Below are positions 1-12,060 of a stretch of DNA of 12,060 nucleotides, piece after piece (within the stretch, counting starts at the first letter, position 1; each line of letters starts with the position of its first letter). Under the pieces are notes generated by a model that did no database searches, was not told where the DNA came from, and was given only the letters and a program-made list of their open reading frames with translations. The DNA comes from Propionibacteriaceae bacterium (GTDB lineage Bacteria; Actinomycetota; Actinomycetes; Propionibacteriales; Propionibacteriaceae): positions 1 to 12,060 of the forward strand of contig DAIESZ010000038.1 of the NCBI GenBank assembly GCA_027346035.1. Reading direction: 5' to 3'. The translations under genes were made by a program, and so were the position numbers.

Positions 1-1620
1 ATCGCGGTCAACGTGTTCCCCGACGTCACCACCACGGCCACCGTCGCCTCGAGTGCGACCAGCCGCACGTTCCTGGACGCCACCGGCGCCATGTCCGTCA
101 CCGCCGTCGCGTCGCTCGATCCGCTCAACCTCGCCACCAACCTCGGGCCCGAACTCCAGGGGCCGGTCGACACGGTGCTCAACAAGATCGGCTGGTCGCA
201 CCCCTCGATCGTGTTCAGCAACATCGCGGCCTCGGGCGCGGCGGCGTCCGGCGACGGCGCAGTCGCGGGCTCCTTCATCGTCAACGTGTGGAACCGGACG
301 ACTCACGCGGCGATCGGCGACGGCGCCAGGATCGACCAGACCGCGGCCCCCTCGCTCACCCAGAGCCTCACCGTGCACGCCGAGGACGTCGTCACCGAAC
401 TCAACATCAGCGGGTCGCTCGGCCTGTCCACAGGGGACGCCGGTGTCGGCGTGGCCCTCATCGTCGCGGTCGTCAACCGCGACGTGCGCGCCACCCTCGG
501 CTCCGGCGTGCTGGCCAAGGCCGGCGGAGACGTCACCGTGAGCGCGATGTCCCGCGAGCCCCTTCTCAACGTGGCGGCGTCCGGCGGAGCGAGCAGCGAG
601 GCCGGCGTCGCCGGATCGATCATCGTCGTCGTCATCAACCAGGGCAGCGGCGACCCGGGCACGTACGCGGGCATCGCCAGCAGCAGCGGCGCCCCGACCA
701 CCGTGCTCGCGCGCGGCAACCTCACCGTGAGTGCCAGCGACAACATCGCCGCCGACGGCAGCACCGTGAAGACCGGTCTCTACTCCGGCGCCGCGGCCTT
801 CGGCAGCTCCGCCGGGGTCGGCATCGCGGCCGTCGTCCTCATCCGCACCAGCCCGGTCGAGGCGACCGTCGGCTCGAACGCGACCATCGGCGGCCTCGCC
901 CTCACCGGCGGCACGGTCACCGGCGTCATCGTGTCCGCGGCCCAGGCCGCCGACCTGCAGCTCGTCGCGGTGAGCGGTGCGGCGGGCGGCGACGCGGGCG
1001 TCGCGGGTTCGGCCGTCGTCGACGTCTACACCGACACCACCACCGCCTCGATCGGCGACCAGTCCACCGTCAACGCCACCAACTCGGGTGCCTCGAGCCT
1101 CCAGGACGTCGTGATCAGCGCCACCGACCACACCAGCCTGCTCGCCATCGCCGGAGGCATCGCCGCCGGCGGCGACGCCGGAATCGGGGCGGGCGCCGAC
1201 GTCGAGGTGCTCACCAAGACCACCTCGGCCACGACCGGCAGCACCGTGACGATCAACGCCGCCCGCAACGTGACGGTGGTCGCCGACAACACCGAGACCA
1301 TCACCTCGATCTCCGCCGGCGCCGCGTTCTCCGGCGAGGTCGCGATCAGCGTCAACGCGGCCGTCTCGGTCTACAAGTTCACCGCCGTGGCCTCGCTGGG
1401 CGCCGACAACGTCGTCACCGCGGGCGGCAGCGTGGTCGTCAACGCCAACGACTCCCTCACCCTCGACGTCGTCGCCGGCAACGTGTCGGCGTCCGGCAGT
1501 GTCGCCGCCGGTGCCGCCGTGGCGGTCCCCGTCGTCACCAAGACCGTGAGCGCCACCGTCGGCGCCGGGTCGACGGTCACCGCCAACTGCACGGTGGGCA
1601 GCGGCGCCAGCACCAACGCC
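1..1620 (+). repeat. Beta-strand repeat array A (protein-level repeats, residues 1-540)
   Basis: Degenerate repeats within the giant protein. Each unit has a V-x-V-x-A strand (starting at bases 91, 367, 532, 721, 925, 1108, 1270 and 1432), then a short polar stretch, a Gly/Ala-rich hydrophobic half such as SGGASSEAGVAGS, then a V-x-V strand and a T-x-x-A-x-x-G turn. Intervals are 92, 55, 63, 68, 61, 54 and 54 residues, so the base unit is about 54 and the longer ones carry insertions. The 92-residue unit contains an extra stretch (about bases 118-215, residues SLDPLNLATNLGPEL onward) that may include a short helix. DNA identity between units is low, so this is an old, diverged repeat. The window opens inside the array, so upstream units are likely. 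The last unit is interrupted near base 1600 by the module block that follows. Confidence 0.85.
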
Positions 1621-4600
1621 GGCGGCCACACCACCACCACGCCCGACCTGCGCTTCGACCCGCGCCGGGCCGTCGCGTACCTCGGCAACCCCAACTCCAT
1701 CTACATCCCCGGCGCCTCGGCCTTCTACACCGAGGGCCAGCGGGTGATCTACGACAACGGCGGCGGAGCCGACATCGTCGGTCTCAACGGCGGCTCGGCG
1801 AGCGGCCAGGGCGACGTCTATTACATCCACTTCCTCACCGCCGGCCAGGACTACGTCCAACTGCTCGCCAACCGCGGCCCACCGAGCACCTCCAACCCGG
1901 TCCTCGCACTCTCGCTGCCCTCCTCGGGCCTCATGGGTGAGAACCAGCGCCTCGTGCCGGCCGACCAGGCCAGCGTCGCGCAGGATCGCAGCCCCCGCTT
2001 CAACCCCACCTGGGACGTCTCCGGCAACACCATCACGCTGCCCTACGACATCTCCGGACTCGCCACCGGCGACCCCGTCGTGTACAGCTCCGGCGGCGGC
2101 ACCCCGATCGGCGGTCTGCTCGACGGACACGTCTACTACGTCATCGTCGTCACCCCCACTGACCTGATCAACGGGACCCACGGCCCCACGATCGAACTCG
2201 CCGCGACGAAGTGCGCCGCCACCGGCGCCTCGGCCGACTGCGGCGGCCAGAGCGGCACCGTGACCGCCCTCACCCTCGACGGGTCGAAGGCCACCGGCAC
2301 CTCCCACAGCATCGTGCTCCAGGGCCAGCAGCCCTCCGCCTCCGGAGCGTCGCTCAACCCGGCCACGGCCTCCCTCGACACCATCACCGGCTTCCACGGC
2401 ATCGCCGTCACCGCCACCAGTTCCGACCTGCTGGCCACCGTGGGTGTGAGCGCCGGCTTCAGCGGCAGCGCGGCGGTCAACCTCTCCGGGTCGATCGCGG
2501 TGCTCACCACCACGACCATCGCCCACATCGGCGACTCCGCCACCCTCGACTCCCACGGCGACCTGCGCGTCACGGCCGGTGAGACCTTCCACCAGCTGGG
2601 CATCGCCGCCACCATCGCCGTGGCCGGGTCGGTCGGCGCCGGCGCCGGTGCCGCGGTGCGCGTCGTCACCCTCGACACCGAGGCGACGATCGGCAACTTC
2701 GCCTCCCTCACCTCCACCGGTGACACGATCATCGCGGCCCGCACCGACGACAGCGTGATCAGCGTCGCGGCCAGCGTCGGCGGCGGCGCGGACGCCGGCA
2801 TCTCCGGTGTCGCGAACGTCACCCTGCTCACCACCACCACCCGGGCTGGCACCCGCTCCGATGCCGACCTGGCGGCGGGCACCGACACGAGCACCGGCAC
2901 GGGCGTCTCGATCACCGCGGGCAACAACGTGCTGGTCAGCGCGAGCGACGCGACCGAACTCACCGGGGTCACGGCCACCCTCGGCGGCGGCTTCTACGCG
3001 GGCATCGGCATCGGCGTCGACGTGACGATCGTGCACAAGGACACCGAGGCACGCATCGGCACCTCCAGCAGCATCACCGCGAACGTCAACGGGTCGGCAC
3101 TGGCCGACGGCGTGTACGACGGCACCGAGAGCGACAGCGGATTCACCGCCCCCACCGGCTTCCACGGGGTGGCAGTCCAGTCGACCTCCAGCGAGCACCT
3201 CTTCGGGCTCACGGCGAGCATCGGCGGCGGCATCGCGGGCATCTCCGGGTCGGTCGGCGTCCACCTCGTCACCTCCGTCACCAAGGCCTTCGTCGACTCG
3301 GGCAGCACCGTCACCACCGGGGGAGCGGTGACGGTCGCCGCCGCCGACGACCTGCGCGCCCTGACCATCGCCGTGGGCTTCGCGGGCGGCGTCGTGGGAG
3401 CCACCGGCGCCGTCGACATCGGCGTGGCCGACACGACCGTGCAGGCCTACCTGGGCGACAAGTCCTCGGTGAGTGCCACCGGGGCCGTCGAGGTGCTCGC
3501 CATGGGACGCCACCACCTCGTCACCGTCGCCGCCAGCGTCGGCGGGGGAGCGGTGGGCATCGCGGCGTCCGTGTCGGTGTGGACGGTCGGCACCGCCCCC
3601 ACCGCCACCTACTCCGACACCGGCACCACCCCGCCGGCCTGGAGTTCGGCCACGAAGTACGGCAAGGGCGACGTCGTCAGCTACGGCGGCAAGACCTATG
3701 CGGCGATCAACGCCGTCGGCCCCTCGTCGACGCCGCCGAGCACCGACACGACGAACTGGAGCCTCCGCACCACCGACGCGCTCACCACCGGCGGCGCCGA
3801 CAACGCCGGCCATGCCGACAGCACCACCTCGGGCACCAGTACCGGAGTCAACAACTCGATCGACTCCACGCAGACCAACGACCGCGGCACCTGGGTCGGC
3901 GGCACCTCGTACGTGAAGAACGACCAGGTGCAATACACCCTCACCACCACCGGATCGGCGACCCTCTCGACCGACGGCGTCACCCTCACCTGCAGCTCCT
4001 GCACCTTCGTCACCGACGGCTTCCAGAGCGGCGACACCGTGACGGTGTCCGGGCCGTGGGGCGACGTGCAGGCCTCGATCATCGCGCTGACCGCGACGAC
4101 GATGACCTTCGGCGCCGCACTGCCCGCGACCACCGGCACGGTCAGCGTCACCGTCTCCCGGACCGACTACTACCTCGCCCGGGTCGACAACTCCGCGAAC
4201 CTCAGCCCGGCCACGGACACGACCGACTGGGAGCGGGTCTCGGCGAGTTCGGTCAAGCTCAACGGCTACCTGGCCGGCGGCAAGTCCTCCGCGATGACGA
4301 GCGTCACCACCGGCACGACGAGCAACGTCGCCGGCGCCCTCGCCTCGACGACCGTGCCCGACGGGATCTCCGCCTACATCGGCGGCACGGTCACCTCGGG
4401 TGCCCAGGTGCACGTGACCGCGTGGGACGACCTGAAGGTCACCGGCGTGACCGGCACGGTCGCCGGCGGCCTGGGCGCCCTCGGCGCCTCCGTCCTCGTG
4501 CTCAACGTGGGCGTGCCGGTCAACGCCGGCATCGGCAGGTTCGGCTCCATCACCGCCGGCTCCGGCAGCACCTCCGACGTCGCCGTCAGCGCCACCAGCA

Positions 4601-7600
4601 CCGAGACCGTCAACGGCATCGCCTTCGGCGGAGGCGTCGGCGCGGTGTCCATCGGGGCCCAGGTCGTCGTCATCAACGACTCGAGCAGCCAGGCCGCGCA
4701 CATCGACGGCGGCGCATCCGTCCTCGGGGCCGGTGGCGGCGTGTCGGTCGGCGCAACCGCGAACCGCTCGGTCACCGCCCTGGCCATCGGTGGCGGCATC
4801 GGCGGGGCAGCGGCGGGTGCCGCGGTTGCCGTGGCCATCGTCAGCGGCGACACGACCGCGACCGTCGGCGCCGACCCCGTCTCCGCGCCGAACGCCACGT
4901 GCGGCACCAGCGCGGCGCCGACGTGCGTGACCTTCGGCGGGCAGACCACCTCGGTGTCGGGGCTCAAGGTGTCGGCCACCGACACCACCCCGGTCGAGGC
5001 GAACTCGTACGCCGTCCAGGCCGGGCTCGCGGCGGGCATCGCCGGCTCGGTGGCGGTGGCGCAGTTCAGCGGCGTCACCCGCGCCTCCTCCGCCGCCACC
5101 GGCAGCGTCGGCAGCGGCGGGGTGACCGTGTCGGCGATCGGCAACCACGGGGACGTCACGGCCAACACCCTTGGAGTCGGCGTGGGCGGCTTCGGCGGGG
5201 TCATCTTCAGCCTCGCCCAGGCGCGCAACGGCCGCAGCACCGTCGCGCTCGTGCGGGCCGGCTCCCTGGCCACCACCGGCACCGCATCGGTGACGGCGTC
5301 CGCCACGAACAAGGCCACGGCCTCCGCGCCCGGCGGTACGGCGGGTCTCGGGGCGCTGGCGGTCATGCTCCCGTCGGCCTACATCTCCGGCGCCACCTCG
5401 GCCACGGTGAACGGCGCGATCACCGGTGCCTCGTCGGCGACGATCTCCGCGGACGCCGAGAACAGCGCCTACGCCTGGGTCGCCGTGGCGGCCGTCTCGG
5501 TGGCCGGCGGGAGCGGCGCCTACGCGGACGCGCAGGTACAGGCGAGCGCGGACATCACCGCCGGGATCGGGTCCACCGGGACCATCACCACCACCGGATC
5601 CCTGAGCATCAGCGCGTCGACCGACGGACCGGACAACAACAAGGCATACGCGAAGGCCATCGCGGGCGGCGTGGGCCTCGCGGGCAACGCCAACATCATG
5701 GTCGCCAATGCCGACGTCGCCGGCTCGGTGCACGCCTTCCTCGACGGCACGGCCACTGCCGGAGCGGGCTCCTGCACCACCAACGGTGTCGCGCACACCG
5801 GCGTCTGCGTCTCCGCCACGAGCATCGACTCCGCCGAGGCCGACAGCGTCGTCGTCAGCGGCTCGTTGGGCCTCGGGCTGGGAGTCGTCGACGAGACGGC
5901 GTCCGTCTCCGCCGGCGCGACGACCGGGGCCACCGGCGGCTCCACCGCCTCGGTGTCGTCGAGCGGCGACGTCACCTTCGACTCCTTGTCGGCCAACACC
6001 GCCAGCACAGACGCCGTCGTCGTCAGCGGAGGGACGGTCGGCGGGTCCGCCGCCGTGCCCACCGCAACCGTGGCCGGGGAGACGCGCGCCGAGTTCGACG
6101 GCACCGTCAGCTCCGCGGCCGGACTGACCGTCAAGGCCGTCGGCGTCAACACGGCGACCGCCACGGCCACGCCGGTCGCGGTCGGCCTCCTCGCCGGCGC
6201 AGGCGCGAACGCGATCGCCCTCATCGCCAGCACTGCGGACGTCACCGCGGCGGTCGGACAGGGCAGTGTGACCGTCGGTGCCGACGGCGTCTCGGTGACC
6301 GCGAACGGAACCAACACGGCGACCGCCTCGGCCAACGGCGGCGGCGGCGGTGGCGTGGCCATCACCGCGATGCTCCCCGACGCGCAGATCGAGGCGTCCG
6401 TCTCTGCCAGCTTCGACGCGGTCATGCCGGTCACCGGCGCGTCCAGCCTGAGCGTCGAGGCGATCGGTGCGAACACCGCGACGGCGACCGCGCTGGCCGT
6501 GTCGATCGGGCTCGGCGCCGGGACCGGCGTCCGCTCGCAGGCCCTGGTCGGCAGCAGCGCCACGGTCTCGGCGAGCGTCGGGGCGGACGCGGTCGTGCGG
6601 GTCGGCAGCGGCGGTGCGACCGTGTCGGCGACGGCCACTGACTCCGCCACCGCCGGTTCGCGCGGCGGGTCGGGCGGCGGTGTGGCGATCGGCGCCATGC
6701 TCGCCCGGGCCGAGGACCGCGGCGGCGCGAGCGCCCTGTTCTCCGGCACGTTCGCCGCCGGTTCCTCGCTCGCGGTGACCGCCACCGGCAACGATTCGGC
6801 GTCCAGCACGGTGCTCGTCGTCGCCATCGGCCTCGCCGCCGGCGCGGGTGCGAGCGCCTGCGCCACCGTCGGGGGACCGAACTCGATCGCGACCGGCGAC
6901 TGCGGCTTCACCTCGCTCCCCGTCACCGATAACGGCACCGGCGGTGCCGTCACCGCGGCCATCACCTCCGGGGCCCAGGTCACCGCGCCGGGAGCCGCCG
7001 TGAGCGTGCACGCCACGCACACCGAGTCGGTCAGCGTGAGCAACCACGGCGGCGCCGGCGGCGCGATCGGCGTCGCCGTGCTCAACAGCTACTCCCAGAT
7101 CCGGGGGACGACCACAGCCGACGTCGGCGCCGGTGTCACGATCGGAAGCGACGCGGCACGCGTGGGCTCCCTGTCCGTGCGGGCCGAGGACACCGCCACG
7201 GCCACGTCGGAGTCGATCCTCGGTGCGGGCGGCGTCATCGCCGGCGGCGGCAGCTACGCCCAGAGCTCGGTGACCCCGACGGTGTCGGCCTACATCGGCG
7301 TCGCGGGCACCGCGCAGACGATCCGCCTCACCGGCGACCTCACGGTCTCCGCGCTCTCGCACCGGGCCGAGAGCAATGCGACGGCCAAGAGCTACGGGGG
7401 CGGCGGCGTCCAGGTCGGTGTGGCGTACGCCACGGTCACCACCGCTCCCACGGTCACCGCATACCTGGCCAAGGGCGTGGACGCCGCGACCGACGGCGCG
7501 GTGAGCATCAGCGCCAAGGCCCTCAGCGACGCCAGTGGCGGCCCGCTGCCCGACTTCTACTCGGCGACGGGCACCCACCCCGTGCTGCAGCCCGACGGAT

Positions 7601-10600
7601 CGACGGCCTACCAGGCGAACGTCGACCTCAGCAACAGCCCGACGGACCTCACCGCGAACTCCGTCTACTTCCAGTCGCATGGCCTGCAGACCGGCGACAC
7701 GGTGCTGTACACCGGCACGAGCATCGGCGGCCTCACCAACCTGCGCGTCTACACGGTCATCGCCGTCGACGCCGACCACCTCGCCTTCGGTGACACCTTC
7801 GCGACCGGATCGATCGACTCCTCCGACCTGACGGGCACCTCGGGCGTCGATCCCACGCGCGACATGATCCGGTTCGCCCAGCCGCACAACTTCCACACCG
7901 GCGACCAGGTCGTCCTGTCGGGCAGCTACGGATTCGGCGGCCTCGCCGCCGGCGGCATCGCCTACGTCCGGGTCGTCGACGACTACCGGATCCAGCTCTA
8001 CTCGACCCTCGCCGCCGCCCAGGCCGCCGCCGTGAGCTTCGCCCCCACCGCTGCGTCGGGCACGACGATCACCGTCGGCAACTCCTTCGCCCCTGGAGAG
8101 CGGGTCAACTACCTGGCGCCCGCGCCGGTGAGCTTCGATGCGGACTCCGTCGACGTGGGCGGGTACGACTCCAGCACGTATTCGTTCCCGACCGACACCA
8201 ACGCGAACACGATCATGGTCGCTCCGGTGCTCAGCGTGAGCCACGACAGCAACGGCAACGTCAATGGGGTCACCTTCGGGCCCAACCCGTTCACCGCGGG
8301 CGAGCGCGTCCAGTACCTGGGCCAGGGGTCGACCGTCGGCGGCCTGGTGAGCGGCCACTACTACTACGTCATCGCTGTCGACCAGTACCGCATCCAGCTG
8401 GCCGCCACCCGCTACCAGGCGACGACGCACACCTACACGTACTCCTGCGGCAATTCGACCTGCACGGGCACCGACAACCCCGTCGCGATCGCCATCTCCG
8501 CCCCCTCCGGAGGCACCCAGGAGCTCGTCCCCGCGCCCCTCTCCGGGCTGGTGAGCGGCGAGACGTACGTGGCCACGGCCGTGTCGTCCAGCAGCCTCTC
8601 GCTCGCGCCGATCCTGTCCTACGACGCGTTCGGGAACGCGGTCGCGGGGTCGCCGATCACCGTGTCGGCGAACGAGACCTACACCAGCACGCGCGGCACG
8701 ACGTTCACCGAGCAGGTGATCTTCGGGACCCAGACCCTGTGGGCCTCCGGGATGCACCTCGCCGCCTCTCCGTCCAGCACCCCGCCCGTCGACGCGCTGA
8801 GCATCGACCTCGGCAGCGTGTCCGCCGGCAACTACATGCTCCAGGCCCCGGCCGATCCCACCGACCCCAACGCTCAGCCCTCGTCGCTCCGCGACCTCAC
8901 GCCGCCGCCGGGCGACGGCAACTCCGAGGCGTCCGCGGCCGGCGGTGGCGGCGGTGCGGTCTCGGTCAACGTCCCGACCGCCGACGCCTACAGCACACCG
9001 GTGTCCACCGCCTACCTCGCGGGCACGGTCGTGGCCGGCGGCGATGTCACGGTGTCGTCGAACGTCGTCACCGACACGACGGCCTGGGTGACGAACGGGT
9101 CGGGCGGCGTCATCGCCGTAGGCGTGGCCAACGCGTCGGTGACGATCAACTCGACGAGCACCGCGCTCGTCGGCGGTCTGGTCGGTCCCGCGGGCTCGGG
9201 CATCTCCGGCGACAGCACGTCGACCCAGGTCGACGGCAGCGGGGCGTCCATCGCCTCCGGTGGCAACGTGGCCGTGCTCGCCAGCAGCAACCACACCTCG
9301 ATGGACCACTCGAACTCCTCGGGCGGCGGCCTGGTGGGCGCGTACACCGCCTCGGCCGACACCACGGTCACCGACACGACCGCGTCCGCGTTCGGCGCGA
9401 ACGCCAACGTCTCCGGCGACACGGTCCGCTTCGACGCGACCTCCGGCGGCACCACCAACCTCTACACGCACGCCGTCATGGGGGCCCTGTTCGGCGGCAC
9501 CGACACCAAGCCGGTCCGCAGCGTAACCTCCCGCGACGTCGTGCTGCTCGACGGGCTGGCCAACAGCCTCGGGTCGATCACCGGCCACTACGGCGTCGAT
9601 GTCCGGGCACACCAGGGGGACTGGAACACCAACGTCGACGAGCACTCCGCCTGCTACTGCATCGGCCCGTCCCACCACAGCGGCAGCGACACCTACGTGT
9701 TCGACTCGCTCGTCTACGCGCACCACGGCGTCGTCGTGCACGCCGGCCCGCGCCTGATCACACAGACCTCCGGCTTCACCTACCTGACGCGCAACGCTTC
9801 CGGTCCGGCGACACCGCTCGTGTTGATCGACAACCCGAACGCCGAGAACCTGGCCCTGTACGTGCAGGGCGAGAACGCCGGTTCGCTGACCGACAAGGGC
9901 AACGCGATCGGGGACACCCAGAACCGGTTGGTCAGCTGGTACTCCGATGTCGTCGTCAACTCGGGGCCCGACCCGTACCTGCTGATCGACTCCTCCGGAC
10001 ACGTCGTTAAGGCAGTGAACGTGACGGTGAACGGTGTAGCAACGCCGGACGTCGGAACGGGGTACACGAGCACCATCACCGTGGGCGACATCGTCAACTC
10101 GAACAAGGGCGACATTTGGATGGCTTCGGCCGGTGGCGCGATCAGCGGGGGGACCTGCGTCGACCCCAATGCCATCTGCCCGAGTGGCAGCAATCACTAC
10201 TGGGGCACGTTCACCTTCCACCAGAACTTCCGCACGGTCGCGATCCTCAACAACTCCAACCTCGACATCGTCGTGCAGAACGTCGACGTCATCGACGAGA
10301 CCAGCCAGCCGCATGTCACTCTGACCACGGGGAACACCGCAGTCACGGTGAAGTTCGACCTCGTCCAGGACGTCAACCCCAGCCTGGTCGTCATCGACAA
10401 CACCGGCGAGTCGACGCTCCACCTCAACGGCACCATCACGAACCCCATCGGCGAGACCGATGTCCGTGCCCTCCTGGGCGACATCCTGTCGGGCACCGCG
10501 CGAGGCGCAACCGTCTCCTCGGTCGACGCCCACACTCAGTTGATCGTCTCCAACGTCGTGCACCTCGATTCCCAGACGGCGTCCCTCGGCTCGTCGACCG

Positions 10601-12060
10601 CACGCGTGAACGTGGATCTGATCGCTTACCCCGGCCACTCTGTGACTTTCACCGCGACAGCGGGCAACAATGCTTATCTCGATCTGCGGACCTGGGTGCG
10701 CGACCCGTCCGTCACCGACCCGGCCACGACCGGCACTCCGCAGACGCCGTACGTCGTCACGATCGGCAGCCTCCTCGCGGGCAACAACCTTGACGTCCGG
10801 CTGCAGGCAAGCCGCTACAGCACCGCGCCAGCGCCGCTGCCAGGGGTGGCCGTCAGTGCCATCAACGGGACGGACCCAAGCGGCAATTTCTACACGTTCT
10901 ACTGGCCGGACAACCCCACCTGCGCCGCCTCGCCATCCGCGTGCCAGTTCATCCCGGGAGTGGGCAGCTCCGACGATCACCCCATCGCGAGCACCTACAC
11001 CTTCACCACCCTCGACTCGGGCTCGGGCACGCCGAACGGCAGCATCACCGTCGCCGCGGCCGACGACTCCGCCACTGCCACCCGGATCAACGTCATCGGC
11101 CTGGTGTCGGTGCACCAGTCCGGCAACCTCAACGTCGACACCAACGGTTTCATCACCCTCACCGAGACGGCGTCCGACAGCATCGCCACGCGGGTCGTCG
11201 TCGACCAGGCCGTCAGCCCGGTGGTGGCCGGCTTCGTCACCTTCGTCGACGTGGTCGTCCCGGTCGGGAGCATCGACATGCGGCTCGGGCTGGTGCGCTC
11301 CACGGACGACGACGTGACGCTCACCTCGCCGGCCTCCATCGTCGACGCACCGGTCGGGTCAGGGGCGCCGCCGATCACCGGCTCGCCGAGCGCCAACGTC
11401 GTCGGCGTCAACATCACCATGACCGCCGGCACCGACGGACCGGGCAGTATCGGCACCGACACCAACTTCGTCGAGATCGACTCGTCGTACGACCGCTTCG
11501 GTGTCGTCAACGCGACGGCGGCGGGGGTCATCCGCCTCACCGAAACCCCGAGCACGCCTGCGGGCAACTACGCGCGACCCGGTGACCTGCACGTCGGCAC
11601 GATCAGCACCTGTGTCCGCTCGACCCTCACGACCTGCGCCGACATCACCCTGACGACCACCGACGGCTCGATCCTCGACGGTCACAACGCCGGCGCGGGC
11701 GGCACGACGGTGAACGTCGTCGGCAACACCATCGACCTGCTCGCCGTCGGCGGCGGCATCGGGACGTTCACCACCGCGGCGTCCGGTGTCTTCACCGGCG
11801 ACCTCAAGCTCGACTCCGCCGCAGGCTCCGGCTGCGCCAGCACCTTCACGCTCGACTGGTTCAAGGCGACCGCCGCCCAGCGCGCCGTCACCGCCACCTG
11901 CGACATCGCGGCGCAGGCTGACACGAGCATCTATCTCACCGAACTCGCCGGGCCGGCGAACCTGCTGCTCGTCCACTCCGGCCTCGCCGGGGCCGGCGAC
12001 GTGCGGGTGACGACGACCGAGACCGGCGTCGAGGGCAACGACATCCTCGTCCTCCACGAC
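1..12060 (+). CDS. Interior of a giant beta-strand-repeat adhesin-like surface protein (partial at both ends)
   Basis: The frame starting at base 1 has no stop in 4020 codons. The protein's true start and end lie outside the window. Composition is dominated by Ala, Gly, Thr, Ser, Val and Asp, with few Lys and only about 23 Cys, nearly all in close pairs. At least 37 strands of the form V-x-V-x-A recur, most often every 51-57 residues, each followed by a Gly/Ala-rich half with the pattern GG-x-x-AG-V. Non-repeat modules interrupt the array: two blocks of TGD-type modules, a pair of CBM5/12-like modules, and a different solenoid-like C-terminal part. Such architecture is known from very large secreted or surface-attached bacterial adhesin-like proteins; extracellular location and adhesion are inferred. 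No signal peptide, sortase motif, secretion domain or catalytic motif is visible. Strong G/C bias at third positions across the whole length supports this frame. The existence of the gene is near certain; its function is uncertain. Confidence 0.96.
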   Translation, partial: MAVNVFPDVTTTATVASSATSRTFLDATGAMSVTAVASLDPLNLATNLGPELQGPVDTVLNKIGWSHPSIVFSNIAASGAAASGDGAVAGSFIVNVWNRTTHAAIGDGARIDQTAAPSLTQSLTVHAEDVVTELNISGSLGLSTGDAGVGVALIVAVVNRDVRATLGSGVLAKAGGDVTVSAMSREPLLNVAASGGASSEAGVAGSIIVVVINQGSGDPGTYAGIASSSGAPTTVLARGNLTVSASDNIAADGSTVKTGLYSGAAAFGSSAGVGIAAVVLIRTSPVEATVGSNATIGGLALTGGTVTGVIVSAAQAADLQLVAVSGAAGGDAGVAGSAVVDVYTDTTTASIGDQSTVNATNSGASSLQDVVISATDHTSLLAIAGGIAAGGDAGIGAGADVEVLTKTTSATTGSTVTINAARNVTVVADNTETITSISAGAAFSGEVAISVNAAVSVYKFTAVASLGADNVVTAGGSVVVNANDSLTLDVVAGNVSASGSVAAGAAVAVPVVTKTVSATVGAGSTVTANCTVGSGASTNAGGHTTTTPDLRFDPRRAVAYLGNPNSIYIPGASAFYTEGQRVIYDNGGGADIVGLNGGSASGQGDVYYIHFLTAGQDYVQLLANRGPPSTSNPVLALSLPSSGLMGENQRLVPADQASVAQDRSPRFNPTWDVSGNTITLPYDISGLATGDPVVYSSGGGTPIGGLLDGHVYYVIVVTPTDLINGTHGPTIELAATKCAATGASADCGGQSGTVTALTLDGSKATGTSHSIVLQGQQPSASGASLNPATASLDTITGFHGIAVTATSSDLLATVGVSAGFSGSAAVNLSGSIAVLTTTTIAHIGDSATLDSHGDLRVTAGETFHQLGIAATIAVAGSVGAGAGAAVRVVTLDTEATIGNFASLTSTGDTIIAARTDDSVISVAASVGGGADAGISGVANVTLLTTTTRAGTRSDADLAAGTDTSTGTGVSITAGNNVLVSASDATELTGVTATLGGGFYAGIGIGVDVTIVHKDTEARIGTSSSITANVNGSALADGVYDGTESDSGFTAPTGFHGVAVQSTSSEHLFGLTASIGGGIAGISGSVGVHLVTSVTKAFVDSGSTVTTGGAVTVAAADDLRALTIAVGFAGGVVGATGAVDIGVADTTVQAYLGDKSSVSATGAVEVLAMGRHHLVTVAASVGGGAVGIAASVSVWTVGTAPTATYSDTGTTPPAWSSATKYGKGDVVSYGGKTYAAINAVGPSSTPPSTDTTNWSLRTTDALTTGGADNAGHADSTTSGTSTGVNNSIDSTQTNDRGTWVGGTSYVKNDQVQYTLTTTGSATLSTDGVTLTCSSCTFVTDGFQSGDTVTVSGPWGDVQASIIALTATTMTFGAALPATTGTVSVTVSRTDYYLARVDNSANLSPATDTTDWERVSASSVKLNGYLAGGKSSAMTSVTTGTTSNVAGALASTTVPDGISAYIGGTVTSGAQVHVTAWDDLKVTGVTGTVAGGLGALGASVLVLNVGVPVNAGIGRFGSITAGSGSTSDVAVSATSTETVNGIAFGGGVGAVSIGAQVVVINDSSSQAAHIDGGASVLGAGGGVSVGATANRSVTALAIGGGIGGAAAGAAVAVAIVSGDTTATVGADPVSAPNATCGTSAAPTCVTFGGQTTSVSGLKVSATDTTPVEANSYAVQAGLAAGIAGSVAVAQFSGVTRASSAATGSVGSGGVTVSAIGNHGDVTANTLGVGVGGFGGVIFSLAQARNGRSTVALVRAGSLATTGTASVTASATNKATASAPGGTAGLGALAVMLPSAYISGATSATVNGAITGASSATISADAENSAYAWVAVAAVSVAGGSGAYADAQVQASADITAGIGSTGTITTTGSLSISASTDGPDNNKAYAKAIAGGVGLAGNANIMVANADVAGSVHAFLDGTATAGAGSCTTNGVAHTGVCVSATSIDSAEADSVVVSGSLGLGLGVVDETASVSAGATTGATGGSTASVSSSGDVTFDSLSANTASTDAVVVSGGTVGGSAAVPTATVAGETRAEFDGTVSSAAGLTVKAVGVNTATATATPVAVGLLAGAGANAIALIASTADVTAAVGQGSVTVGADGVSVTANGTNTATASANGGGGGGVAITAMLPDAQIEASVSASFDAVMPVTGASSLSVEAIGANTATATALAVSIGLGAGTGVRSQALVGSSATVSASVGADAVVRVGSGGATVSATATDSATAGSRGGSGGGVAIGAMLARAEDRGGASALFSGTFAAGSSLAVTATGNDSASSTVLVVAIGLAAGAGASACATVGGPNSIATGDCGFTSLPVTDNGTGGAVTAAITSGAQVTAPGAAVSVHATHTESVSVSNHGGAGGAIGVAVLNSYSQIRGTTTADVGAGVTIGSDAARVGSLSVRAEDTATATSESILGAGGVIAGGGSYAQSSVTPTVSAYIGVAGTAQTIRLTGDLTVSALSHRAESNATAKSYGGGGVQVGVAYATVTTAPTVTAYLAKGVDAATDGAVSISAKALSDASGGPLPDFYSATGTHPVLQPDGSTAYQANVDLSNSPTDLTANSVYFQSHGLQTGDTVLYTGTSIGGLTNLRVYTVIAVDADHLAFGDTFATGSIDSSDLTGTSGVDPTRDMIRFAQPHNFHTGDQVVLSGSYGFGGLAAGGIAYVRVVDDYRIQLYSTLAAAQAAAVSFAPTAASGTTITVGNSFAPGERVNYLAPAPVSFDADSVDVGGYDSSTYSFPTDTNANTIMVAPVLSVSHDSNGNVNGVTFGPNPFTAGERVQYLGQGSTVGGLVSGHYYYVIAVDQYRIQLAATRYQATTHTYTYSCGNSTCTGTDNPVAIAISAPSGGTQELVPAPLSGLVSGETYVATAVSSSSLSLAPILSYDAFGNAVAGSPITVSANETYTSTRGTTFTEQVIFGTQTLWASGMHLAASPSSTPPVDALSIDLGSVSAGNYMLQAPADPTDPNAQPSSLRDLTPPPGDGNSEASAAGGGGGAVSVNVPTADAYSTPVSTAYLAGTVVAGGDVTVSSNVVTDTTAWVTNGSGGVIAVGVANASVTINSTSTALVGGLVGPAGSGISGDSTSTQVDGSGASIASGGNVAVLASSNHTSMDHSNSSGGGLVGAYTASADTTVTDTTASAFGANANVSGDTVRFDATSGGTTNLYTHAVMGALFGGTDTKPVRSVTSRDVVLLDGLANSLGSITGHYGVDVRAHQGDWNTNVDEHSACYCIGPSHHSGSDTYVFDSLVYAHHGVVVHAGPRLITQTSGFTYLTRNASGPATPLVLIDNPNAENLALYVQGENAGSLTDKGNAIGDTQNRLVSWYSDVVVNSGPDPYLLIDSSGHVVKAVNVTVNGVATPDVGTGYTSTITVGDIVNSNKGDIWMASAGGAISGGTCVDPNAICPSGSNHYWGTFTFHQNFRTVAILNNSNLDIVVQNVDVIDETSQPHVTLTTGNTAVTVKFDLVQDVNPSLVVIDNTGESTLHLNGTITNPIGETDVRALLGDILSGTARGATVSSVDAHTQLIVSNVVHLDSQTASLGSSTARVNVDLIAYPGHSVTFTATAGNNAYLDLRTWVRDPSVTDPATTGTPQTPYVVTIGSLLAGNNLDVRLQASRYSTAPAPLPGVAVSAINGTDPSGNFYTFYWPDNPTCAASPSACQFIPGVGSSDDHPIASTYTFTTLDSGSGTPNGSITVAAADDSATATRINVIGLVSVHQSGNLNVDTNGFITLTETASDSIATRVVVDQAVSPVVAGFVTFVDVVVPVGSIDMRLGLVRSTDDDVTLTSPASIVDAPVGSGAPPITGSPSANVVGVNITMTAGTDGPGSIGTDTNFVEIDSSYDRFGVVNATAAGVIRLTETPSTPAGNYARPGDLHVGTISTCVRSTLTTCADITLTTTDGSILDGHNAGAGGTTVNVVGNTIDLLAVGGGIGTFTTAASGVFTGDLKLDSAAGSGCASTFTLDWFKATAAQRAVTATCDIAAQADTSIYLTELAGPANLLLVHSGLAGAGDVRVTTTETGVEGNDILVLHD
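1651..1872 (+). other. TGD/GGL-type beta module, copy 1 (residues 551-624)
   Basis: Lead RFDPRRAV, then a predicted strand NSIYIPG, the turn-strand TEGQRVIYDNGG, an IVGLNGG equivalent to the usual IGGL, and VYYIHFLTAGQDYVQLLAN, matching the pattern F/L-x-TGD-x-V-x-Y ... GGL-x-x-G-x-x-YYV-I-x-V-D ... I-x-LA seen in the other copies. It is diverged: TEGQ replaces TGD and there is a longer loop before the YY strand. The same pattern is common, from memory, in giant bacterial repeat proteins, but I cannot attach a reliable family name. Function is unknown; a small all-beta domain is likely. Confidence 0.6.
1873..1995 (+). other. Linker between TGD modules with a Q-x-LVPA motif
   Basis: Pro/Ser-rich stretch (RGPPSTSNPVLALSLPSSG) followed by ENQRLVPADQASVAQDRSP. 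The motif Q-x-LVPA recurs at about 8518-8535 (QELVPAPLSG) in the second module block, which suggests it is a regular element of the module family and not a random spacer. No domain is recognised. Confidence 0.4.
1996..2211 (+). other. TGD/GGL-type beta module, copy 2 (residues 666-737)
   Basis: The best-conserved copy in this block. It has the lead RFNPTWDV, a strand NTITLPYDISG, the core ATGDPVVYSSGGGTPIGGL, then LDGHVYYVIVVTPTDL and IELAATK. Length is about 72 residues. It is followed at once by a Cys pair (bases 2212 and 2239, nine residues apart). Copies 1 and 2 together with flanks make an insertion of about 269 residues in a single 54-residue repeat unit (strand at 1432 to strand at 2401). 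The relation to copies 3-7 at 7657-8625 is clear from the shared motif order; function is unknown. Confidence 0.7.
2212..2400 (+). other. Cys-paired loop and return linker to repeat array
   Basis: Residues 738-800. Contains CAATGASADC, a likely disulfide hairpin, then Gly/Ser/Thr-rich strands (GTVTALTLDGSKATG, SHSIVLQG) and a QQPSASGAS linker that leads into TITGFHGIAV, the first strand of array B. The element TGFHGIAV has a close match, TGFHGVAV, at about base 3154, so it is a recurring lead-in to this repeat type. Confidence 0.4.
2401..3600 (+). repeat. Beta-strand repeat array B (residues 801-1200)
   Basis: Seven V-x-V-x-A-type strands start at bases 2401, 2563, 2725, 2929, 3169, 3328 and 3487. 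The intervals are 54, 54, 68, 80, 53 and 53 residues. Four of six are 53-54, which fixes the basic unit length. The 68 and 80 units carry polar Asp/Ser/Thr-rich loops (TRSDADLAAGTDTSTG; VYDGTESDSGFTAPTG) before the closing strand. Gly-rich halves such as GGGIAGISGSVGV follow each strand. The final unit (from 3487) is broken after SVWTVGTAPTATYSD by the CBM-like pair and resumes at about base 4366 (ISAYIGGTVTSG). Confidence 0.85.
3640..3768 (+). other. CBM5/12-like (ChiC-type) carbohydrate-binding module, copy 1 (residues 1214-1256)
   Basis: The motif order fits the family-5/12 chitin/cellulose-binding fold: opening Trp (base 3640, W1214), W-x5-Y-x-x-GDVVSY-x-GK-x-Y, then a loop with Pro residues (SSTPPSTDTTNW) closing at a second Trp (base 3757, W1253). 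Length of about 43 residues is normal for the family. The tandem aromatic pair after the central strand, which binds ligand in classical chitinase modules, is replaced by YAAINAVG, so sugar binding cannot be assumed; phage tail and adhesin proteins use similar variants. It sits in a loop of a beta-strand repeat unit and not at a protein end. Fold assignment is fairly confident; ligand is unknown. Confidence 0.72.
3769..3891 (+). other. Ser/Thr/Asn-rich linker between the two CBM-like modules
   Basis: Residues 1257-1297 read TTDALTTGGADNAGHADSTT followed by a stretch rich in Ser, Thr, Asn and Gln. It is low complexity and likely flexible. It could space the two modules. No motif is recognised. 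Confidence 0.5.
3892..4236 (+). other. CBM5/12-like module, copy 2, split by an inserted domain (residues 1298-1412)
   Basis: The first half is W-VGGTSYVKNDQVQY (Trp at base 3892). The second half is DYYLARVDNSANLSPATDTT followed by DWERV (Trp at base 4228). Joined, these halves give the same W-x-x-x-x-x-Y-x-x-x-x-x-V-x-Y ... YYLA ... P-x-TDTT-x-W order as copy 1. The two Trp are 112 residues apart; after removing the 76-residue insertion (3937-4164) the spacing falls to 36, close to 39 in copy 1. The split falls just after the strand ending VQY, a loop position in this fold. TDTT-x-W is shared by both copies. Confidence 0.65.
3937..4164 (+). other. Small beta domain with CSSC motif, inserted in CBM-like copy 2
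   Basis: About 76 residues, 1313-1388. Order: a Thr-rich strand (TLSTDGVTLT), a CSSC pair (Cys codons at 3991 and 4000), DGFQSGDTVTVSGPWGDVQA, IIALTATTMTFGAALPA, TGTVSVTVSR. The pattern GF-x-x-GDTVTVSG ... I-x-x-(V/L)TATT-x-T(F/L) is, from memory, frequent in phage structural proteins and large surface proteins as a small beta domain. It also echoes the GD core of the TGD modules elsewhere in this protein. It has no known activity. The CSSC could form a tight disulfide or be a metal or redox motif; nothing else in the segment supports a redox role. Confidence 0.55.
4348..5283 (+). repeat. Beta-strand repeat array C (residues 1450-1761)
   Basis: Before it, 4237-4347 is a Ser/Thr/Gly linker (SSVKLNGYLAGGKSS, then TTGTTSN). 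The array completes the interrupted unit with ISAYIGGTVTSGAQVHVTA. Strands start at 4408, 4579, 4741, 4963 and 5122, with intervals 57, 54, 74 and 53 residues, then 54 to the next array. The 74-residue unit has an extra loop with a Cys pair (bases 4900 and 4924; NATCGTSAAPTC). Gly-rich halves include GGGVGAVSIGAQVVV and GGGIGGAAAGAAVAVAI. Confidence 0.82.
5284..6999 (+). repeat. Repeat array D: strictly alternating short and long beta-strand units (residues 1762-2333)
   Basis: Strands start at 5284, 5437, 5602, 5803, 5971, 6124, 6289, 6448, 6616 and 6769. Unit lengths in order are 51, 55, 67, 56, 51, 55, 53, 56, 51 and 77 residues. Taking the 67 and 77 as units with Cys-loop insertions, the order is short, long, repeated five times. 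Short units share GG-x-x-GG-x-AI-x-AMLP-x-A-like cores (MLPSA at 5365, MLPDA at 6370, MLARA at 6697) and end in A-x-(F/V)-x-G. Long units share GL-x-AGAG cores and usually end near A-x-VG. Many strands are followed by N-T/K-ATA-x-A. Extra loops hold Cys pairs at 5773/5806 and 6859/6901. This points to duplication of a two-unit block of about 107 residues. A hexaglycine run lies at 6337-6354. Confidence 0.82.
7000..7560 (+). repeat. Beta-strand repeat array E (residues 2334-2520)
   Basis: Strands start at 7000 (VSVHA), 7171 (LSVRA), 7339 (LTVSA) and 7501 (VSISA), 57, 56 and 54 residues apart. Cores are GGAGGAIGVAVLNSYS, GAGGVIAGGGSYAQSS and YGGGGVQVGVAYATVTT, each followed by a T-x-x-(A)-x-(I/L) strand and the turn. 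The alternation of array D is no longer evident here. The last unit is broken straight after its V-x-V-x-A strand by the second module block. Confidence 0.8.
7657..7800 (+). other. TGD/GGL-type beta module, copy 3 (residues 2553-2600)
   Basis: NSVYFQSHGLQTGDTVLYTG, then TSIGGL-TNLRVYTVIAVDADHLAFGDTF. All landmarks are present: strand, H-G-L-x-TGD, V-x-Y, IGGL, YxVI-x-VD and a closing strand. At 48 residues it is the shortest clean copy and defines the minimal module. The preceding 7561-7656 is a linker (SATGTHPVLQPDGSTAYQAN) ahead of the module strand. Confidence 0.68.
7861..8040 (+). other. TGD/GGL-type beta module, copy 4 (residues 2621-2680)
   Basis: DMIRFAQPHNFHTGDQVVLS, then FGGLAAGGIAYVRVVDDYRI and QLYSTLAAAQAAAVSFAP. 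Landmarks H-x-F-x-TGD-x-V, GGL, YV-x-VVD and I-QL are present, with the tail STLAAAQAAAV that in this module type usually marks the last strand and exit. Confidence 0.66.
8062..8223 (+). other. Degenerate TGD-type beta module, copy 5 (residues 2688-2741)
   Basis: TITVGNSFAPGERVNYLAP opens like the family (F-x-PGERV-x-Y), but the middle is replaced by SFDADSVDVGGYDSSTYSFP before NTIMVA closes it. The GGL/YYV core is reduced to VGGYDSSTYSF. It may be a decayed copy or a fusion of two half modules; SFDADSVDV resembles the RFDP/RFNP lead of copies 1 and 2. Confidence 0.45.
8269..8421 (+). other. TGD/GGL-type beta module, copy 6 (residues 2757-2807)
   Basis: VTFGPNPFTAGERVQYLGQG, then STVGGLVSGHYYYVIAVDQY and RIQLAATRYQA. 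This is a near-ideal copy in which TAGERV replaces TGD-x-V. It closely matches copy 2 in the GGL-x-x-G-H-x-YYVI segment despite lying 6 kb away. It is followed by a Cys pair (bases 8446 and 8461, CGNSTC), just as copy 2 is followed by one. Confidence 0.68.
8482..8625 (+). other. Degenerate TGD-type module, copy 7 (residues 2828-2875)
   Basis: VAIAISAPSGGTQELVPAPL, then SGLVSGETYVATAVSSSSLS and LAPILSYD. The GL-x-SGE-x-Y-VA-x-AV-x-x-x-x-L-x-LA order is retained but the TGD turn is lost and replaced by Q-ELVPA, matching the Q-x-LVPA element at 1951-1962. It is the last member of the block. Confidence 0.5.
8626..8930 (+). other. Linker and beta segment between module block and repeat array F
   Basis: Residues 2876-2977. 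It begins with predicted strands (GSPITVSANETYTSTRGT, FTEQVIFGTQTLWASGMHLA), then a Ser/Pro linker, ALSIDLGSVSAGNYMLQAP, and a Pro/Asp-rich run (PADPTDPNAQPSSLRDLTPP) that looks disordered. The next bases (8941-8955) encode a Gly-rich core that restarts the repeat. No family is recognised. Confidence 0.4.
8931..9525 (+). repeat. Beta-strand repeat array F (residues 2978-3175)
   Basis: Restarts with SAAGGGGGAVSVNVPTADAY. Strands V-x-V-x-S/A start at 9046, 9268 and 9424, intervals 74 and 52 residues. The 74-residue unit has a Gly/Ser loop (LVGPAGSGISGDSTSTQ) but no Cys. Cores include NGSGGVIAVGVANASVTI and NSSGGGLVGAYTASADT. This is the end of the roughly 54-residue repeat in this window. Confidence 0.75.
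9526..10215 (+). other. Non-repetitive beta-rich segment downstream of the arrays (residues 3176-3405)
   Basis: The 54-residue rhythm stops here. Predicted strands include RDVVLLDGLAN, YGVDVRAH, DTYVFDSLVYAHHGVVVHAG, TPLVLIDNPNAENLALYVQG, RLVSWYSDVVVN, DPYLLIDSSG, AVNVTVNGV and GDIWMASAGG. The residue mix is broader (more Tyr, His, Trp, Leu, Asn) than upstream. Similar segments follow repeat arrays in other giant bacterial surface proteins as I remember them, but no named domain can be given. A Cys pair lies at 10156/10177. From about 9960 the codons become less G/C-ending. Confidence 0.5.
9586..9741 (+). other. His/Cys-rich patch, possible metal site (residues 3196-3247)
   Basis: Within 52 residues there are eight His (codons at 9586, 9610, 9643, 9673, 9676, 9721, 9724, 9739) and two Cys (9652, 9658) in the order H-x-x-C-x-C-x(4)-HH ... 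HH-x(4)-H. The rest of the protein is poor in both. A metal-binding site is one reading; a C-x-C disulfide in an ordinary loop with incidental His is the alternative. No known metal-binding family signature is matched. Confidence 0.4.
10216..10704 (+). other. Beta-rich module with FRTVAILNNS...NPIGET motifs (residues 3406-3568)
   Basis: Order: FHQNFRTVAILNNSNLDIVV, QNVDVID, a strand pair around VTVKFDLVQD, NPSLVVIDNTGESTLHLNG, TITNPIGETDVRALLGDILS, then LIVSNVVHLDS and VNVDLIAYPG. The spacing of I-x-N and N-PIG-x-T turns suggests a right-handed beta-helix-like solenoid. It resembles segments seen near the C-terminal side of other giant repeat proteins from memory; no domain name is certain. 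Several A/T-ending codons occur here. Confidence 0.45.
10705..11100 (+). other. Beta-rich connector with Cys pair (residues 3569-3700)
   Basis: Contains TPYVVTIGSLLAGNNLDVRL, GVAVSAINGTDPSGNFYTFY, a Cys pair (codons 10921 and 10942; PTCAASPSACQF), STYTFTTLDSGSGTPNGSIT and a strand ATRINVIG that leads into the next repeat. No family is recognised. Confidence 0.4.
11101..12060 (+). repeat. Second repeat type: solenoid-like units of about 126-133 residues (residues 3701-4020, continues)
   Basis: Landmarks recur in order: I-x-LTE(T/L) at 11152, 11530 and 11929 (126 then 133 residues apart), then a strand run with V/I-x-V, D-(V/I)-x-LT(S/T), SI(V/L)D-x-x-x-x-G, NVVG-x-x-I, a G-x-IGT turn (about 11443 and 11755) and a (V/L)-(E/K)-(I/L)DS strand. 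The third unit runs off the window end. Periodic G-x-I and L-x-L-x-(D/T) strands are typical of filamentous-haemagglutinin-like beta-solenoids; that fold is inferred. Cys pairs at 11611/11635 and 11833/11899 sit in loops of the second unit. Confidence 0.62.

Follow-up and report, generated by a model that had tools for sequence, protein, structure and literature searches.

Introduction

Giant, probably secreted beta-solenoid proteins are already held in the databases, where they are called hypothetical or 'beta strand repeat-containing' proteins. Another described group is the LktA type (NCBIfam NF012206, 'leukotoxin LktA family filamentous adhesin'), whose Gram-negative members typically carry an N-terminal type V secretion signal or a two-partner secretion domain. 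Here, we analyse a stretch of 12,060 bases from a Propionibacteriaceae bacterium (the window), which is a complete metagenome contig (G000:C16) and falls entirely inside one gene. This gene joins the giant proteins of the databases; it is of a known general kind and no new system. In our reading, to which we give a probability of roughly 0.6, the window covers an inner stretch of a single gene of an uncultured actinomycete, and this gene encodes a giant and probably secreted surface protein, most probably a stalk-like adhesin or matrix protein.

Bacterial surface proteins form one main group of the huge proteins, those of more than 5,000 amino acids (PMC11573180). This is a size class and not a family, and the accessible part of that paper does not mention the lineage of the window (PMC11573180). 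The window itself contributes 4,020 open codons and about 10,400 are implied for the gene, which no contig spans as a whole. In Apilactobacillus kunkeei, the extracellular proteins Giant1-5 reach 3,000-8,000 amino acids and Giant1-4 have a predicted N-terminal beta-solenoid domain, according to the accessible part of their account (PMC12863079). Their likeness to the window protein is one of description only, as they belong to another phylum and form a rod of alpha-helical repeats (PMC12863079). For the actinobacterial family, a literature search found no account, a weak negative given that it covered open-licence PubMed Central papers, mostly by titles and the openings of abstracts.

Results

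Read in + frame 1, the window holds 0 stops in 4,020 codons, when 64.8 would be expected from its base composition (P ~4e-29). The single uninterrupted frame of the original prediction is thus confirmed, and both the start and the stop of the gene lie beyond the assembled contig. Two frames matter for what follows:

1..12060, + strand: internal part of a giant gene, 4,020 codons with neither start nor stop in the contig (no stops, GC3 0.946, 20 of 25 substitutions synonymous, colinear homologues)
1..11115, - strand: antisense shadow open reading frame (ORF) in codon register with the sense gene, 3,705 codons long and judged to be no gene (codon usage, substitutions, stops in relatives, Pfam)

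The guanine plus cytosine (GC) content of + frame 1 is 0.612, 0.582 and 0.946 at codon positions 1, 2 and 3, and the third-position value (GC3), a check that had been proposed, favours this frame. The remaining five frames contain 72, 11, 1, 68 and 209 stops. No tandem DNA repeats were found in the window. The original prediction had also warned that methods needing a start and a stop would report arginine-rich shadow frames instead of the gene, a warning that holds for closed ORFs. Among ORFs of at least 200 amino acids, the longest closed one (3579..6641, +, 1,020 amino acids) does mislead, as it lies in frame 3, which translates into a chain with 33% arginine. However, a listing of open-ended ORFs gives the correct frame immediately, and the codon-aligned antisense frame is not mainly arginine but rich in glycine and alanine, with 14.5% arginine.

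Natural variation provides an independent view of the frame. Two contigs of Actinomycetes bacterium isolate DS4.bin21 match window positions 2946-7335 and 7201-11629 with identities of 99.5% and 99.9%, without a single indel over the 8.7 kb from 2946 to 11629. The 25 substitutions that separate them from the window are clustered, many of them in 3750-3900, and not all are independent; 20 fall at third codon positions, and it is precisely these that are synonymous in + frame 1. When substitution positions were drawn at random with the substitution types retained (4,000 draws), synonymous sites averaged 7.0 and never exceeded 15. In the antisense frame, 1 of the 25 is silent against a null mean of 6.7, and one or none was reached in 0.2% of the draws. 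Two of the four differences between one of these contigs (L008) and the window lie at its edge, a stretch in which it also disagrees with the other contig (L009) at 2 of 135 bases. This pattern shows that purifying selection acts in + frame 1 and not in the antisense frame. Thus, because GC3 is so high and the DS4.bin21 variants are mostly synonymous in + frame 1, the window is part of a real giant gene, coding in that frame.

How long is the complete gene? The source genome is a fragmented assembly (384 contigs, 77% complete), and the proposed extension of the contig in both directions is not possible. Relatives were used as a ruler, together with a second contig from this assembly. In G434, a single-contig actinobacterial genome of 3.6 Mb (a class-level match), an ORF of 10,434 residues runs from a start that resembles a signal peptide by eye to an LAATG end that resembles a sorting signal. 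Window residues 6-2914 and 3188-4004 map to it in order, at 6056-8932 and 9035-9780, although identity is only ~25-30%. In the phylum-level match G722, itself a draft genome, a stop-free frame extends over 13,159 codons (C45, 82473-121952, - strand). A gene of ~10,500 codons, colinear over nearly the entire window with 45-47% identity, is carried by the 54.9-kb Rhodococcus antarcticus plasmid NZ_CP110618, in two open frames (4929-26927 and 24833-36628 of locus L018) linked by one coding-frame switch near 26.1 kb. It is annotated as two hypothetical proteins, WP_265385170 and WP_265385171. Unlike the window, this copy is plasmid-borne and split between two frames, and it displays a signal-like and matrixin region as well as RTX repeats. 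The annotated coding sequence starts 586 codons late in the first frame, leaving the signal-like and matrixin region out.

The second contig, C384, carries a 5'-open frame of 599 amino acids (locus L022, 2-1801), residues 2-598 of which match the R. antarcticus tail (46% identity, E 1.8e-137). C384 is thus the probable carrier of the 3' end of the window gene. The R. antarcticus spacing places up to 2,700 codons 5' of the window and a gap of ~3,140 codons before C384, from which the full-length protein would have about 10,400 residues, in line with the earlier claim of a giant protein longer than 4,020. With window residues 1-3000 as query, a search of the source genome returned the window as the sole match; the R. 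antarcticus N-terminal query found no match there, an empty result that shows nothing in the absence of a known positive.

These relatives also bear on the antisense ORF, the largest rival frame, which the original prediction had overlooked. Its length of 3,705 codons, in a frame with one stop, could suggest a real overlapping gene, alone or alongside the sense gene, and the relatives also have long antisense-open stretches, up to 5,192 codons in G434. However, this is just what the shared codon usage predicts. In fact, the ORF is open because the sense frame is nearly devoid of TTA, CTA and TCA codons (0, 0 and 1 among 4,020), and selection is not needed to keep it so. Moreover, the same frame is interrupted in the relatives (7 stops in G434, 14 in G722, 10 + 4 in R. 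antarcticus), its protein has no Pfam match and the single silent substitution contrasts with the 20 of the sense frame. On these grounds we rejected an antisense gene, to which we give next to no credence. The shadow is rather a warning: codon usage of this kind leads one to expect an antisense ORF of 3,705 codons, which does not speak for a gene.

The ends of the protein can be seen in the relatives. Secretion-type N-termini are apparent by eye in G434, G722 and R. antarcticus. A matrixin-like motif, taken as the zinc site HExxHxxGxxH, lies near the N-terminus in 4 of the best 120 homologues, in R. antarcticus and in G722; the G434 ORF has no HExxH motif. Pfam M10 had no match in the genome of the window (77% complete), while the control matched in 6 of 14 genomes. 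Neither R. antarcticus nor G434 gave a Pfam match to a type V secretion or two-partner domain in its N-terminal part, the N-terminus of the window gene being unassembled, and PF13018, which is assigned to several homologues, was not found in those parts either.

At the other end, R. antarcticus has RTX repeats and DUF7507, and DUF7507 is present on C384. The R. antarcticus relative has 8 stretches of PF00353 nonapeptide repeats, in the region matching the unassembled gap of the window gene, and none are detected in the window or on C384. NCBIfam RTX, haemolysin and protease models scored far below their cut-offs on the R. antarcticus tail and were not used as names. RTX-like repeats are also visible by eye in the last 1,500 residues of G722. 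Sortase-anchored wall proteins end with a C-terminal LxxTG signal, a hydrophobic run and a basic tail. Signals of the LAxTG type are found in G434 and in three of the best 120 homologues (P0012, P0014 and P0017); the last residues of the probable C384 tail are ...NNLEGSLAPPP, with no such signal.

Within the window, the protein carries beta-repeat units with other domains in between:

220..1584, + strand: beta-solenoid repeat block 1, 8 profile-detected units, residues 74-528 (profile; model of residues 61-420)
1645..2370, + strand: inserted non-repeat region, about residues 549-790, boundaries approximate (translation by eye; similarity to homologue P0008 begins at residue 549)
2407..3609, + strand: repeat block 2, 7 units, residues 803-1203 (profile; best NCBIfam LktA_tand_53 stretch at residues 1078-1130)
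3637..3759, + strand: CBM_5_12-like stretch, residues 1213-1253 (21.1 bits, below the family cut-off of 26.2)
4414..5136, + strand: repeat block 3, 4 units, residues 1472-1712 (profile)
7012..7143, + strand: single further repeat unit, residues 2338-2381 (profile)
9901..12057, + strand: distal block kept in distant homologues, residues 3301-4019 (alignment of residues 3301-3720; matches in G434 and G722; weak model)

Comparing the window protein to itself with BLASTP (E 1e-3) gave no off-diagonal match, and repeats were therefore counted by profile. This profile detects 20 units in the window, commonly 53-57 residues apart, a count that is circular since the profile was built from the window itself. 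It finds no match in 20 shuffled copies. Applied to the relatives, however, it also reports 48 units for G434 and 38 for G722. Between block 3 and the unit at residues 2338-2381, composition stays similar and the profile detects no units. By eye, the inserted region contains a recurring element of the type 'G..V.Y..GGG..IGGL..G..YYVI'. The CBM_5_12 family is also assigned to several homologues.

Residues 61-420 are modelled as a beta-solenoid (mean predicted local distance difference test score, pLDDT, 87.9; predicted template modelling score, pTM, 0.83), with the stacked coils and long parallel sheets that define this fold. The LktA-type model matches the window in 11 stretches of its 53-residue repeat, with 47.2 bits, below the curated cut-off of 50, and several distant homologues bear the LktA-type filamentous adhesin name. 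The distal block aligns with 7 homologues over residues 3301-3720 (alignment A2, 27-57% identity), but its structure model is weak (pLDDT 55.4). Searching PDB sequences gave no match with query A1, and three weak ones with A2: cartilage acidic protein 1 (E 0.00015) and, twice, neuronal growth regulator 1 (E 0.012 and 0.014). Foldseek returned no match at E <= 0.001 in the PDB or in the viral library. A structural second look brought up many carbohydrate-active and acyltransferase beta-helices, whose functions we did not transfer to the window protein.

Among 1,392 candidates scored, the protein search retrieved 128 homologues at E <= 1e-3; the best 120 are ~3,000 to 7,000 residues long, many of them partial, and the best ones align in the same order along the window. 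In the genomes sampled, giant-gene matches are rare. Window residues 1-1300 (E <= 1e-15) were matched in 2 of 197 genomes of the family, 1 of 293 of the order, 2 of 296 of the class and 2 of 296 of the phylum, the genome of the window being counted at each rank.

One discrepancy emerged from the contigs. C384 is syntenic with contig C58 of genome G046, where the giant-gene tail is followed by genes read as a flavin reductase, DUF885 and an amine oxidase. DNA identity between the two is 76-81%, as between species. Since contig C142 of G046 equals DS4.bin21 contig L009 over the 2,455 bases compared, G046 is probably DS4.bin21. The tail locus thus diverges from G046 by ~20%, yet identity between the window and contigs of that bin is 99.5-99.9%. 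Either wrong binning of contigs or a recent exchange of the gene's middle part would account for this. The coding evidence is unaffected, because two natural variants suffice for it. Downstream of the tail, C384 itself carries genes read as a flavin reductase, DUF222/HNH, DUF885 and an FAD amine oxidase.

Discussion

From sequence and fold model, we propose that the window protein is the stalk region of an actinobacterial adhesin or matrix protein that is giant and secreted. The chain would be exported by the general secretory route and fold extracellularly, where the C-terminal part of the R. antarcticus chain would use calcium-binding RTX repeats. It would extend as a long thin stalk that attaches the cell to a surface, to polysaccharide or to other cells. 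The N-terminal matrixin-type metalloprotease motif of several relatives may process the chain or its target. A beta-solenoid rises by 0.48 nm per coil; at ~54 residues per coil, 10,400 residues would span at most ~90 nm.

The same giant secreted protein could have a main job other than adhesion, as a surface coat or matrix scaffold, or as a carrier for N-terminal protease or carbohydrate-binding modules that attack polymers or cells. We consider this rather unlikely: neither Pfam nor NCBIfam recognises a catalytic domain in the window, the G434 protein does without HExxH, and the sorting-signal-like tails of some relatives fit an attached filament. A decaying gene or an assembly chimaera, with a frame left open by chance or mis-assembly and a gene broken beyond the contig, would be of another nature. 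In 14 of the best 120 homologous gene models, arginine exceeds 15% in the last 100 residues (whole-protein median 2.3%), and these tails look like a frame break into a shadow frame; together with the frame switch of the R. antarcticus copy and the differing relations of the window and C384 to G046, they speak for this reading. However, an independent assembly reproduces 2946-11629 without indels and with mostly synonymous differences, frames of 10,434 and 13,159 codons are intact in relatives, and sequencing errors, as well as real breaks, may account for the interrupted frames of deposited copies. This makes decay or mis-assembly very improbable.

Returning to the stalk-like adhesin or matrix protein, it may belong to an undescribed and sparse actinobacterial lineage of secreted proteins of 10,000-13,000 residues. 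Tentatively, and with more doubt than confidence, we envision that these combine, in a make-up that varies, a matrixin-like N-terminal protease with a beta-solenoid stalk, dozens of coils long, and one of the alternative C-termini (RTX and DUF7507, or a LAxTG-type signal), and that they spread partly by plasmids and intragenic recombination. If expressed, such single-chain filaments of up to ~90 nm would constitute a large and little-studied part of some actinomycete surfaces.

The window also illustrates that an entire metagenome contig can fall inside one gene. Giant genes are hard to assemble and annotate, and here we met fragments, starts annotated too late and tails in shadow frames. Four proteins of this giant family (P0020, P0021, P0023 and P0024) are even assigned to the sea spider Nymphon striatum (contig of 103 kb) and are probably bacterial contamination of that assembly.
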